Shown piece after piece: positions 48,068 to 53,765 of a stretch of DNA of 64,000 nucleotides; position 1 is the first letter of the stretch; each line of letters starts with the position of its first letter. The stretch comes from a bacterium (lineage in GTDB: Bacteria > SZUA-79 > Acidulodesulfobacterales > Acidulodesulfobacteraceae). A program made the position numbers and the translations under genes. The notes below the pieces were generated by a model. The model was not told the DNA's origin. It worked only from the letters and a program-made list of their open reading frames with translations, and searched no databases. The DNA lies in NCBI GenBank assembly GCA_021789605.1, contig JAJYJI010000005.1:21951-85950 (forward strand). The letters run 5' to 3'.

Positions 48068-50365
48068 TTAAAAATATCCGAGCTGCCTTAATTTATCCAT
48101 AGCCGCTTCCTTGTCCTGCGACCTCCCGGAACGTTCGGCTTCGCCCCCCGTAATTTTTGTGCAAGGCTTGCAGTCTATCGACCTGTAGCCTTGTTCATAC
48201 AGGGGGCAGTAAGGAATATTATTCAATTTTATATAATCCCAGATATCCGACTCGGTAAAGTGGAGAATGGGATGGACGCGGTAATGGTGGGGCGCTTCTC
48301 TTTTGGAAAAATATTTTTCGTTTGCGCGCGATTCGTTTTCGTCTTTTCTTATTCCGGTCATTAAAGCCTTTAAATGCAGTTCTTTGACGGCATTTTTTAT
48401 AGGAACGGTTTTTAACAGGCTGCAGCAGTTTTGTTTATCTTCGGCGATAGAAATAGTTTTCAGGGCTTCGGTATTTGTATATACCAGCAAATCGAAATTC
48501 CATTCTTTTTTTAATTTCTCTATAAAATCGCGTATCTCCTGAAATTCAACCGAAGTTTCGATAGTGAATATTTTGAACGGAATTTGTCCGTCGAAGGCGT
48601 TTCTTACCAAATGAAGCAGAACGGAAGAATCTTTACCCCCCGTAAAAGCTATTCCTATTTTTTCTCCGAAACGGTCGTACGCTTCTTTTATAATTTCGAC
48701 GCTTAGCGATATTTTTTGATTGAGCAGAACAAGGGATTCGTTTTTACCGTCTTTTTTAGGTTCGTTAATAATTATGCCCGTTTTTTTAACGCTGTCGAAT
48801 AAATTTTCGGTAGAAACCGATTTCTTTTCGATATTATTTAATATTTCGACGTATTTGGCGGATTCTGTCAAATCCGGGTTAAAGTTTATTGGGTTTTCTT
48901 CATAAAGGTCGTTGGAAAGGTCGTAGTAAAAATTTAAATTTCTATTGTATATATCCGAGTTAGTTATATTTTTATATAAATTTAATCTTGCGTTTTTATC
49001 GGTTTTAAGGGATTTAAGAGAGTTTAATAATTGTAAGAATTCGACCTTGCCTATGCGCTTTCTGAGGATGTCGTTAAATATGCTGATAATATAATCTTCA
49101 TCCGACAGCATTACGTTTTCGATAATATTTTTTGTCTGGAGTTCGGAAATCTTATCGGGCATAAATATATATTTTTTATCGGCCGTCCTGATGGCGCGCT
49201 GAGACAAAAAGTATTTATCTTTGGACGAAGCGCCGTTTTTATTCCTGTCGTATTCGTTAGCTGTAAATTGCATTATTTCGTTGTACATATTTTGAGTGTA
49301 AAATTCGGAATAGCAGAATTCCCTTTTTTCGAATAGCGATTGGCCGTCTATTCCGCGACCCGAACCGTTTGAATTTTCCGTTATTTTTTTGCCGTTCGAA
49401 TCCCCGTTCAAATTATAAGGCTCCAAGCCGGATAAAGAAATTAAAGTAGGAAAGATATCGGTTATAGAAGTTAATTTTTCGTAAATTTTATTCTCGATTT
49501 CGGGGGCGTGAAAAATAAGGGGCAAATGAATTACTTCGTCATATAGTTCTCCCATATGCCCGAATACCGACTGGTCGAACATGGTTATCCTTCCTTCTCC
49601 GTGGTCGGAAAAAACGGCGAAAATATTTTCGGGATTAAAATACCCCATTTCTTTTAAAGATTTATAAATCCCGCGGAAGCGTCCTTTATCGAATTTATTG
49701 ATGCCGTAGATATAAGGGGGGAGCATAACGTTTAAATCGTAATGGACTTTGCCGGCAAAATAGTTCCATAGGGCGAAAGGATTATCGGTGTTAGTCGGAG
49801 TTTTATAAAGGACCGACATTTTCTTCATAAAATCGAAATATTCGCGGTTGTAATTATCCTCGTTGTAATTCTGCGAATAAATATAGGGTTCGTGGACGTC
49901 GAAAAGATGAACGAAGCAAAAAATATTTTCATCTTTAACCGCTGAGAGCTGTTTAATAAGGTCGTTAATATTTCCGGCAGTTTTGTAATCGAATCCTTTT
50001 GCCAGCCCCAACGGCTCGAATAATTCAAACACGTCCGTATAAAATATAGTTTTATAGCCGTTTTTTTTATAAACTTCCGCAAGCGTAACGGCGTCGCCGT
50101 TTAATTTTTTATAGAAAAACGGCCTTACTCCGTGGGCGGGAGGATATAAACCGGTGAACAGCGATGCATGGGCGGACGTTGTATAACTTGACGTGGAAAA
50201 AAAATTAGTAAAAATAGACGCGTTAGACGAAATTTCGTCCAACGTGGGGGTATCTACGAGGGTATCGACGTAATACTGCTTTAGATGTGCCCTGTTTTTA
50301 TTATAGCCGACGCAGTCGTATCTTAGGTTGTCGATAGATATGAGCAAAACTTTTTTTGGTTCCAT
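48068..50365 (-). CDS. sulfatase/alkaline-phosphatase-fold hydrolase fused to PAPS reductase-like PP-loop domain
   Basis: N-term VLLISIDNLRYDCVGYN, TTSAHASLFTGLYPPAHGVR, FSDHGEG; C-term IAFTGGKDSSVLLHL, GIRKDENESRANE, CKPC. Confidence 0.85.
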   Translation of the reverse strand: MEPKKVLLISIDNLRYDCVGYNKNRAHLKQYYVDTLVDTPTLDEISSNASIFTNFFSTSSYTTSAHASLFTGLYPPAHGVRPFFYKKLNGDAVTLAEVYKKNGYKTIFYTDVFELFEPLGLAKGFDYKTAGNINDLIKQLSAVKDENIFCFVHLFDVHEPYIYSQNYNEDNYNREYFDFMKKMSVLYKTPTNTDNPFALWNYFAGKVHYDLNVMLPPYIYGINKFDKGRFRGIYKSLKEMGYFNPENIFAVFSDHGEGRITMFDQSVFGHMGELYDEVIHLPLIFHAPEIENKIYEKLTSITDIFPTLISLSGLEPYNLNGDSNGKKITENSNGSGRGIDGQSLFEKREFCYSEFYTQNMYNEIMQFTANEYDRNKNGASSKDKYFLSQRAIRTADKKYIFMPDKISELQTKNIIENVMLSDEDYIISIFNDILRKRIGKVEFLQLLNSLKSLKTDKNARLNLYKNITNSDIYNRNLNFYYDLSNDLYEENPINFNPDLTESAKYVEILNNIEKKSVSTENLFDSVKKTGIIINEPKKDGKNESLVLLNQKISLSVEIIKEAYDRFGEKIGIAFTGGKDSSVLLHLVRNAFDGQIPFKIFTIETSVEFQEIRDFIEKLKKEWNFDLLVYTNTEALKTISIAEDKQNCCSLLKTVPIKNAVKELHLKALMTGIRKDENESRANEKYFSKREAPHHYRVHPILHFTESDIWDYIKLNNIPYCPLYEQGYRSIDCKPCTKITGGEAERSGRSQDKEAAMDKLRQLGYF

Positions 50366-50769
50366 ACGTTTTCCTTAATTTTAGATTTTATTTGAGTTTA
50401 TTTTATTAATTTAATTAATAAAAATTTATTTTAACGCTTGAGAAAACTTTCAAAAACTAAACGCCTTAAATGTAATAATTATAATTCATTATAACTTAAC
50501 TTTGTTAATATATTATAAACTTTTTATTTTTGTCTTTAAATAAAAAAATAAACATAAAAAAATAAAAAATTATACGCGCGATAAATATATCTATATCGCC
50601 TTATTATAGCCGTGCCTCACGCTCTTACGCGACTCGCGCGCGGTTCAGCTCGGTTCACGCATGCCGGTCATGCCGGTTGGTCATGCCGGTTTGACTTTTC
50701 ATAATTTGGGTGATAGACTTTCAATATACTTTTTATATAAGAAAGTATTTATAAACATTCATACTTTAT

Positions 50770-50958
50770 CTTAAAGGTTTAAGGGAAACAGGTTAAATTC
50801 CTGTGCTGTTCCCGCAGCCGTAAGAACTTATAACGGAAAGTTTCCAAGACTCTCCGTTATTAAAAATATTCCCATATGCCACTGGCGGCGTCTATTATAA
50901 TAATAGCCGGGAAGGCGGAAATATTTGCATGTTCAAGCCGGAATACCTGCTTTTAAGA
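50770..50958 (+). promoter_or_regulatory. cobalamin riboswitch
   Basis: ggttaaattcctgtgctgttcccgcagccgtaa...gccactgg...gccgggaaggcgg...aagccggaatacctgc matches the B12-box consensus; precedes the NicO gene. Confidence 0.92.
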
Positions 50959-51000
50959 TAATAAAATTTAATTTAATTTTAATTAGCGGGAGGTCTAATT

Positions 51001-52038
51001 ATGTTTTTACCGTTTTTACGTCCGTCTTTATTAAGCTTTAGACAGAGGATTTTTCTGCTCTACGGATTTTTGCTATCCCTTTTACTAATCTCCATTATAC
51101 TTTTAATCGACAGGTCGAGCGTATTCCCCGTATTATTAAGCCTTGGTTCGCTCGCATTCTTCTTCGGCGTGAAGCACGCGCTTGATGCCGACCATATCGC
51201 CGCGATAGACAACACTACCAGAAAATTGATGAACGACGGAAAAAAACCCGTAGGAGTGGGTTTTTTCTTTTCCGTGGGGCATGCTTTGTCGGTTTTTGCC
51301 TTAACCATAATAACCGTTATTATAGGAAAATTTGTCGTTAAAGCGTATCCGGAACTCGGCAATATAAGCGACATGGTCGGCACCGGCGTATCGGCTCTAT
51401 TTTTATACCTGATAGCCTTTATGAACATCGTTATTCTTATCAGCATTGTTAAAATCGCAAAAGATTTTAAAAATCTTCAGAGCAAGAAAATAGAAGAAGA
51501 GCTTTTAAAGAGAGGTTTTATGTTCCGTTATTTTAACGGAATAATGAAACTTATTACGTCGAGCTGGCAGATGCTTTTTGTAGGCATTTTATTCGGCATA
51601 GGATTCGACACTGCAACGGAGGTCGCCATACTTTCTATGTCGGCGGTATTTGCATCCGCGGGCAGGCCGTTAATAGACGTTCTTATACTGCCGTTGGTAT
51701 TTGCTTCAGGAATGATACTTTTAGATTCTACCGACGGCGTCGTAATGCAGTTTGCTTACAGCTGGGCTTTTTTAAATCCCGTAAGAAAAATATTTTATAA
51801 CATTTCTATTACAAGCATTTCAGTCTTTCTGGCATTCGGCATAGGAACGCTCGAATGGCTTCAGGTTATAGGAGCGGAATACAATCTGAAAGGCCAGCCG
51901 TGGGATTTTTTTAATAACGTTTCTTTTGCCATGCTCGGCGGAATAATAGCCGGCATTTTGACGTCGGCGTGGCTTTTGTCCTTATTGGTATATAAGTTCA
52001 GCAGGGTGGAAGAAAGATACTACGGCAATACAGAATGA
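51001..52038 (+). CDS. NicO/HoxN family Ni/Co transporter (cobalt likely)
   Basis: KHALDADHIAAIDNTTRKLM signature (HxxxxDH), GFDTATE; multi-TM; under cobalamin riboswitch. Confidence 0.92.
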   Translation: MFLPFLRPSLLSFRQRIFLLYGFLLSLLLISIILLIDRSSVFPVLLSLGSLAFFFGVKHALDADHIAAIDNTTRKLMNDGKKPVGVGFFFSVGHALSVFALTIITVIIGKFVVKAYPELGNISDMVGTGVSALFLYLIAFMNIVILISIVKIAKDFKNLQSKKIEEELLKRGFMFRYFNGIMKLITSSWQMLFVGILFGIGFDTATEVAILSMSAVFASAGRPLIDVLILPLVFASGMILLDSTDGVVMQFAYSWAFLNPVRKIFYNISITSISVFLAFGIGTLEWLQVIGAEYNLKGQPWDFFNNVSFAMLGGIIAGILTSAWLLSLLVYKFSRVEERYYGNTE

Positions 52039-52129: not shown

Positions 52130-53146
52130 ATGGATGCTTATAATTACAGAGCGGAAAATAACGAATTTTATATACAATGGCACTTCGTTAGCTCCTGCAA
52201 TTTAAGATGTATTCACTGCTATCAAAACGATTATAAACGCGAAAACCCCGCACCGGATAAACTTAAATCAATTTTTTTAAAAATAGATGAAGCTATGTCT
52301 AAATGGAAAATGAAATGTTTTGTTTCGCTGACCGGAGGCGAGCCCTTTCTGGAGCAGGATTCCCTTTTCTATTTAACGGATTTAATCGAGAAATCTGATA
52401 ATTTCCGCAATATCGCCATACTAACAAACGGCACATTAATCGACGATGAAGCAATCAGCCTGTTAAAAAAATATAAAAAAATTTCCGAAATTCAAATATC
52501 TTTAGACGGACACGACGAAAAAACGCATGACGCTATAAGGGGACGAGGAACCTTTTTAAAAGCTGCGGAATCTATACGCAGGCTGAAAGATGCCGGGATT
52601 AAAACATCGATAATGTTTACCCTGCATAAAAAAAATAAAGGGTCCGTTTTAAGCATGCCGGAATTAACATGCTCTTTAAAAGCCGACGCCCTTACCGTCG
52701 AGAGAATGACGACCATGAACCAAACCGAAGAGAAGGATTTTTTCATAGAGCCGCAGGAATTAAAGGCTATTTATTCAGATATTTACAGCAAAACAAAAGA
52801 CGTCTTTTTTGGTAAAAACGCTAAATTTATTACGTCGAGGCCTCTATGGAATCTGGTTGACGAAAATATAGGCGGCTACTGCCCCGCAGGGCTTTCCTCC
52901 TTATGCATACTCGAAGACGGAACTTTACTGCCGTGCAGAAGGCTTTATCTGCCGTTGGGGAATATCTTAACGGACGGGTTGTTTAAAGTATGGTATAATT
53001 CCGACATTTTATGGGATATCAGGAAAAAGGCCGGCGGAAGCGAATGTTCGGACTGTTCCCATTCCGAGAGGTGCGGCGGGTGTAAAGCCGTAAGCTACTA
53101 CCGCAACGGCGATTTAAATTCGAAAGACCCCCAATGCTGGGTATAA
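52130..53146 (+). CDS. radical SAM/SPASM domain protein, candidate RiPP maturase
   Basis: SSCNLRCIHCYQ (CxxxCxxC), LTGGEPF, C-terminal SPASM CSDCSHSERCGGCKA...C. Confidence 0.9.
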   Translation: MDAYNYRAENNEFYIQWHFVSSCNLRCIHCYQNDYKRENPAPDKLKSIFLKIDEAMSKWKMKCFVSLTGGEPFLEQDSLFYLTDLIEKSDNFRNIAILTNGTLIDDEAISLLKKYKKISEIQISLDGHDEKTHDAIRGRGTFLKAAESIRRLKDAGIKTSIMFTLHKKNKGSVLSMPELTCSLKADALTVERMTTMNQTEEKDFFIEPQELKAIYSDIYSKTKDVFFGKNAKFITSRPLWNLVDENIGGYCPAGLSSLCILEDGTLLPCRRLYLPLGNILTDGLFKVWYNSDILWDIRKKAGGSECSDCSHSERCGGCKAVSYYRNGDLNSKDPQCWV

Positions 53147-53189
53147 GAAGCCGGCCAAGAAAGCCGAAAAAAGGGAGATAATATAAGAT

Positions 53190-53453
53190 ATGGGGATATT
53201 TAAACTTTCTGAAAATATAAGCATAAAAAAGAAAGGCGAAAATTATTTACTTTTCGATAACCTTAACGGAAACATATATAAAATAAACGAAGTATCGTAT
53301 AAAATTTTATCTTTGTGCAACGGCAAAAACACGGAAGAAGATATAATAAAAAATATTACAAGCTCTTTCAGCGTCGCGCATGAAGAAGCGGTAAAAGATT
53401 TTAACGTTTTAATGCAAAATCTCTTAGAGAGGCTGTATGTAGCAAACGTATAA
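53190..53453 (+). CDS. PqqD-like RiPP recognition element (RRE)
   Basis: 87 aa; LLFDNLNGNIYKINEVSYKILSLCNGKNTEEDIIKNI typical PqqD pattern; downstream of rSAM/SPASM. Confidence 0.88.
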   Translation: MGIFKLSENISIKKKGENYLLFDNLNGNIYKINEVSYKILSLCNGKNTEEDIIKNITSSFSVAHEEAVKDFNVLMQNLLERLYVANV

Positions 53454-53492
53454 AAATAATCGAACGTTAACGCAACCAAGGAGGTGAAATTT

Positions 53493-53597
53493 ATGAAAAG
53501 GGTTTATGAAAAACCGGTGTTTCAGGAAATTCCCGCAGAAGAATTTTATGCTTTAATCATGGAAGATTACGGGATTAAGGGCTCTTGCTATTCCTGA
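53493..53597 (+). CDS. candidate RiPP precursor peptide MKRVYEKPVFQEIPAEEFYALIMEDYGIKGSCYS
   Basis: 34-codon ORF not in the supplied ORF track; strong RBS aaggaggtg 6 nt upstream; YEKPVF leader-like start, Cys near C-terminus; directly follows PqqD gene. Confidence 0.75.
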   Translation: MKRVYEKPVFQEIPAEEFYALIMEDYGIKGSCYS

Positions 53598-53633
53598 AAG
53601 TCTTGCAAATAAGCGCAGTTAGCGCTTCCTAAA

Positions 53634-53703
53634 CCTTCTCCCTTCCTGAAAGTTATACGGCCGTACATCTTCATTTTAGGCTAAAAAGAGGGAAGGGAGA
53701 AGG
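53634..53703 (+). terminator. long hairpin downstream of the candidate precursor peptide
   Basis: perfect 13-bp arms ccttctcccttcc / ggaagggagaagg; no strong U tract so terminator function is tentative. Confidence 0.5.
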
Positions 53704-53765
53704 GCAAATATGCATCGTTTATATTTTATATTTATTTATAAATTTTATTAAAACGGATTAACGGC

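Follow-up and report, generated by a model that had tools for sequence, protein, structure and literature searches.

Known selenopeptide systems and the locus

Only one precursor of a RiPP containing selenocysteine (Sec), SbtA (TIGR04081, with the motif SGUG), is listed in a 2026 review (PMC13188914), and its radical SAM enzyme, SbtM, makes a thio(seleno)oxazole (PMC11002830). PapB is reported to hold the Cys or Sec of its substrate at an auxiliary cluster and, when the peptide contains Sec, to form a selenoether (PMC10470005). Our search of the literature for the core sequences described below and for Sec RiPPs, outside subscription papers and unpublished models, returned SbtA/SbtM alone.

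The locus described here lies in the window, a stretch of 64,000 nucleotides from a genome of 2.0 Mb (99% complete, 5% contamination) whose relatives are SZUA-79/Deltaproteobacteria/Ca. Acididesulfobacter diazotrophicus; the Ca. Acididesulfobacter group was described from acid mine drainage (PMC6776010). Three genes follow one another on the + strand and encode a radical SAM/SPASM enzyme, a PqqD-type protein and a small peptide. This is the arrangement that the original prediction had reported, and the coordinates and Pfam scores agree with it. The features are:

52130..53146 (+): radical SAM/SPASM peptide maturase, 338 aa (Pfam, alignments, AlphaFold model)
53190..53453 (+): stand-alone PqqD-type RiPP recognition element (RRE), 87 aa (PF05402; same place, in the gap between the radical SAM and peptide genes, in relatives)
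53478..53486 (+): RBS aaggaggtg of the precursor gene (sequence)
53493..53612 (+): precursor peptide gene, 39 codons and TAA, MKRVYEKPVFQEIPAEEFYALIMEDYGIKGSCYS-U-KSCK (orthologues, paralogues, alignment)
53595..53597 (+): in-frame TGA, predicted selenocysteine codon (TGC/TGT in ten paralogues)
53611..53627 (+): SECIS-type hairpin AAGCGC-AGTTA-GCGCTT, with its loop starting 19 nt past the TGA (hairpin analyses)

No protease or exporter gene adjoins the operon, and a scan for sigma-70 promoters scored the window no better than shuffles. Directly preceding the operon are a cobalamin riboswitch (RF00174, 72.7 bits; window 50758-50968, + strand) and, 3' of it, a NicO/HoxN-type Ni/Co transporter gene (51001-52038); other genes occupy this place in the related loci examined. 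An ORF of 765 aa on the − strand (48068-50365) appears, from a look at its sequence, to have a sulfatase-type N-terminus and a PAPS-reductase-like C-terminus. A long inverted repeat (CCTTCTCCCTTCC ... GGAAGGGAGAAGG; 53637-53704) lies 3' of the precursor gene; it lacks a T run, and a terminator and a mobile repeat are both possible readings of it.

The radical SAM protein scores 87 bits against PF04055 and 29 bits against the SPASM model PF13186, and the PqqD protein scores 39.6 bits against PF05402, all above the cut-offs. The radical SAM protein is 61-75% identical across the family, and an alignment of 32 homologues shows that the CxxxCxxC motif (C23, C27 and C30) and the complete seven-Cys SPASM set (C251, C269, C306, C309, C315, C318 and C336) are invariant. 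The nearest folds in the PDB to its AlphaFold model (pLDDT 87) are SkfB, SuiB, anSME and CteB, and searching the solved structures with a profile points the same way. The features by which radical SAM RiPP systems are generally recognized (a radical SAM/SPASM fold, an RRE protein and a co-encoded, conserved leader-core peptide) are all present.

The system resembles SbtA/SbtM (the 'selenobacteriocin' pair, TIGR04081/TIGR04082) in that a short predicted Sec precursor with a SECIS element is paired with a radical SAM/SPASM enzyme. It differs in having a separate PqqD protein and a CxxUxxC core instead of SGUG, with no match to TIGR04081, and its radical SAM enzyme reaches 129.3 bits against TIGR04082 (cut-off 350 bits), covering positions 197-515 of the model, with the N-terminal 196 positions absent. 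Since the enzyme is far below the SbtM cut-off and the read-through peptide matches none of the NCBIfam families at E ≤ 10, the system is not SbtA/SbtM; nor does any Pfam or NCBIfam model cover the precursor. The best-scoring named radical SAM family is TIGR04340 of the ACGX system (140 bits; cut-off 400 bits). ACGX systems have Cys-rich short peptides, but the window peptide lacks ACGX repeats, and the system is not of this type either. The enzyme shares its fold and a Cys-containing substrate with the sactipeptide and ranthipeptide maturases SkfB, CteB and PapB. Whereas the RRE of such maturases is fused at the N-terminus, the PqqD protein of the window system stands alone, and the predicted substrate has a natural Sec in a CxxUxxC core.

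Three further assignments were tried and rejected. GeoRSP (TIGR04302/TIGR04303) also combines a radical SAM/SPASM enzyme with a PqqD-family protein, but the scores here are 130.6 bits for the radical SAM protein (TIGR04303; cut-off 400) and 18.1 bits for the PqqD protein (TIGR04302; cut-off 100). For PQQ, the PqqD protein has 25.4 bits against TIGR03859 (cut-off 46) and no PqqA precursor is matched; for mycofactocin, the radical SAM protein has 110.5 bits against TIGR03962 (cut-off 265) and no MftA precursor is matched. The original prediction was of an undescribed system, distinct from PqqA and MftA, and it was to be abandoned if the peptide belonged to the Geobacter-type geopeptide system or was not conserved beside homologous radical SAM/PqqD pairs. 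It stands on all of these points: no named precursor family is matched, the GeoRSP scores are too low and, as shown below, the peptide is conserved.

The precursor peptide and its in-frame TGA

The precursor peptide is present in 27 of the 30 SZUA-79/Ca. Acididesulfobacter genomes, with the radical SAM and PqqD genes adjoining it in most of them, and the gene is thus real and not a chance ORF. Some copies are orphan paralogues, and a genome can hold up to four paralogous precursors. The strong RBS noted originally is found just before the ATG at 53493, and the leader-like start YEKPVF corresponds to a YxxP leader. A GTG start at 53484, which would give 37 aa, was dropped as the RBS and the orthologues favour the ATG.

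The original reading of a 34-aa peptide with the core GIKGSCYS and one Cys has to be changed, as the TGA at 53595-53597 very probably encodes selenocysteine. The core would then be SCYSUKSCK (CxxUxxC). We base the Sec reading on the exchange of TGA with Cys codons, a coding signature after the TGA, hairpins linked to the TGA and the presence of Sec machinery in the genome.

The precursor ORF continues past the TGA through U-K-S-C-K to a TAA at 53610-53612. When all copies are aligned, every peptide ending in SCYS ends at a TGA, and K[SE]CK and a stop follow in frame; the paralogues with the cores SCYSCKSCK, SCYSCKGCK, SCHTCRACF and SCCSCKSCK have TGC or TGT at the TGA site. A 39-position profile run over the 30 genomes found TGA at this site in 25 copies, a Cys codon in ten and TAA or TAG in none, with one decayed copy (G007:C88) that has a TAA upstream as well as the TGA. 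Ordinary genes in these genomes use 63 TAA, 18 TGA and five TAG stops. The codons that follow the TGA vary synonymously (AAA/AAG, TCC/TCT/TCA or GAA/GAG, TGC/TGT and AAA/AAG).

Bacterial SECIS elements are modelled as a stem of 4-16 bp and a loop of 3-9 nt with a G in the first two loop positions, 16-37 nt after the UGA and with an MFE of ≤ −7.5 (PMC13188914). The window hairpin fits this model (6 bp, loop AGTTA, 19 nt spacing, −7.5 to −8.0 kcal/mol), with a short stem that lies mostly 3' of the stop codon and an energy (−7.5 kcal/mol) right at the limit that the model sets; the minimal stems of several relatives are weaker (−5 to −6.6 kcal/mol). A hairpin of the SECIS model accompanies 23 of the 24 distinct TGA copies, the exception being the decayed copy, compared with two of the ten Cys copies (Fisher p = 2e-5, the copies being related and the counts not independent events). 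The hairpin is lost or broken in eight of the Cys copies, whole in one and reduced to the same stem with a different loop in one, which is the pattern expected if Cys replaced Sec and the SECIS then decayed. The loop of the precursor hairpins reads AG[GT]T followed by a single base that varies, with its A, G and T invariant, and the covariation in the stem is 0.375 against 0.176 in shuffled alignments (0 of 500 shuffles as high). A comparable hairpin arises in 4% of shuffled downstream sequences at a looser threshold of −4, and a hairpin with an AG[GT]T loop at −5 or better follows none of 40 ordinary TGA stops of these genomes. Rfam has no model matching the precursor hairpin.

The window genome encodes selA, selB, tRNA-Sec and selD, all above the cut-offs. 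An in-frame UGA (SAHG-U-GCK) also occurs in this selD, together with a hairpin of its own, which supports a Sec-decoding trait in this very genome; SelD was taken as the proof of decoding because the full-length FdhA of the window genome has no in-frame TGA. The formate dehydrogenase FdhA of two sister genomes (G001 and G012) has Sec in the context ...ARI-U-HAPTV, with a SECIS loop AGTTT at a spacing of 19, and this loop is the same as that of the precursor genes.

Cys-only relatives and their neighbourhoods

A genome-wide scan with the radical SAM alignment found relatives in Firmicutes, Desulfobacterota, Nitrospirota, Actinobacteria and archaea. Most of the closest distant loci have, in order, a radical SAM gene, a PqqD gene and a peptide of 39-59 aa with a Y..P leader and a C-terminal core such as CFGCTNCNCN or CRQCSSCHGCR. 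In the wider peptide alignment Y, P, F and CxxCxxC are invariant, and in SZUA-79 Sec takes the position of the middle Cys. As the relatives have Cys at this same position, Sec would be a replacement particular to this lineage, within a CxxCxxC peptide family that is widespread. No TGA version with a conserved tail occurs among the limited sample of distant loci, and a scan of 395 genomes from a different phylum (around G051) with the profile of the wider peptide family had one clear match, which lacks a TGA. Sec thus seems to be confined to SZUA-79, where it has apparently been changed back to Cys on several occasions.

Several Cys precursors (SCYSCKSCK, SCCSCKSCK, SCHTCRACF and SCRTCRACF) are found near the radical SAM operon in two genomes (G014 and G011; L052:2878-6574 and L062:5431-8502). 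They lie 3' of secreted DsrE-like proteins or of a conserved secreted protein (∼210 aa) that no Pfam model matches, a placement that suggests a sulfur-related role. Ca. Acididesulfobacter diazotrophicus (G021; L066 and L108) has, as well as the Sec system, a second radical SAM protein, 38% identical, with a PqqD protein and a CRQCSSCHACR peptide, near a glycosyltransferase-like gene and a further radical SAM gene.

Downstream genes in the relatives that have no counterpart in the window encode an amidohydrolase-GNAT fusion, a class II tRNA-synthetase-like protein, a prenyltransferase-type toroid, a second radical SAM protein and an asparagine-synthase-like protein. The larger clusters around radical SAM relatives (L087:7431-11608, L103:7449-11322 and L100:7349-9089) also hold a DNA methylase and a metallo-β-lactamase-domain protein of ∼1050 aa.

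Proposed pathway, alternatives and significance

The assignment of the operon to the RiPPs is strongly indicated by the fold neighbours of the radical SAM protein, the gene order of radical SAM, PqqD and peptide, and the invariant Y..P, F and CxxCxxC in distant phyla. We consider it probable that the three-gene unit makes a selenium-containing RiPP through SelB read-through, leader binding by PqqD and modification by the radical SAM enzyme. SelB, helped by the hairpin at 53611-53627, would read the UGA at 53595 as selenocysteine to give a 39-aa precursor. By analogy with other PqqD/RRE systems, the YxxP leader would be bound by the PqqD protein, which would pass the C-terminal core SCYS-U-KSCK to the radical SAM/SPASM enzyme. 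There the Cys or Sec may be held by an auxiliary [4Fe-4S] cluster, and the enzyme would most likely form a bond from S or Se to a carbon nearby, as the sactipeptide and ranthipeptide maturases do. Cleavage of the leader and export would fall to enzymes encoded elsewhere. A thioether or selenoether within SCYSUKSCK is our best guess for the modification; no acceptor is conserved between the Cys residues beyond small or polar residues.

In its full form, this proposal describes a second natural Sec-RiPP class with a CxxUxxC core and PqqD-guided radical SAM/SPASM formation of selenoether and also thioether bonds, the Cys-only relatives of Firmicutes, Desulfobacterota, Nitrospirota and archaea making up one widespread family for which no curated model of the precursor exists; we hold it tentatively, at a little short of an even chance. 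A reading that keeps the Sec and changes the chemistry is a serious contender, though we would also place it below even, at around two in five: an SbtM-like oxazole or a change at Tyr or Ser, with CxxUxxC serving in redox reactions or in the binding of metal or chalcogen. SbtM offers a precedent for different chemistry on a Sec peptide (PMC11002830), redox selenoprotein motifs include CxxU and UxxC (PMC13188914), and the Cys paralogues of G014 and G011, which follow secreted DsrE-like proteins, also favour this reading. Against this, thioether and peptide-cross-link maturases are the closest folds among solved structures, the radical SAM protein has 129 of the 350 bits required for SbtM and the peptide lacks SGUG, the motif of SbtA.

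A PQQ-like or mycofactocin-like cofactor excised from the peptide, a product close to the one originally envisaged from the lack of an adjoining protease or exporter, seems to us improbable. The combination of a radical SAM protein, PqqD and a short peptide follows that logic, no exporter adjoins, and the radical SAM operon is conserved in the family at close to one per genome. However, PqqA and MftA are not matched, PqqD (25.4 against 46 bits) and the radical SAM protein (110 against 265 bits) fall short, the CxxC/UxxC core is conserved and genomes have up to four paralogous precursors; the Cys-rich core of the family points instead to an S or Se cross-link or to thiol or selenol chemistry. 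Least credible of all is an ordinary stop at the TGA, with a one-Cys peptide ending in ...GSCYS. That is what standard translation returns; against it stand the exchange of TGA with TGC/TGT, the coding signature downstream, the SECIS-type hairpins tied to TGA and the working Sec system of the genome, and we regard it as extremely improbable.

With the Sec reading preferred, gene callers would truncate such precursors precisely at the active residue. Matched Sec and Cys precursors exist for one enzyme family, sometimes in the same genome (G014, G011 and G020), so the effect of replacing S by Se on radical SAM chemistry is directly testable. If the proposal is true, this would be a second family of Sec precursors, with a core motif unrelated to that of SbtA and occurring almost throughout an uncultured acidophilic phylum, and selenocysteine, the 21st amino acid, would occur in more than one kind of bacterial peptide natural product.
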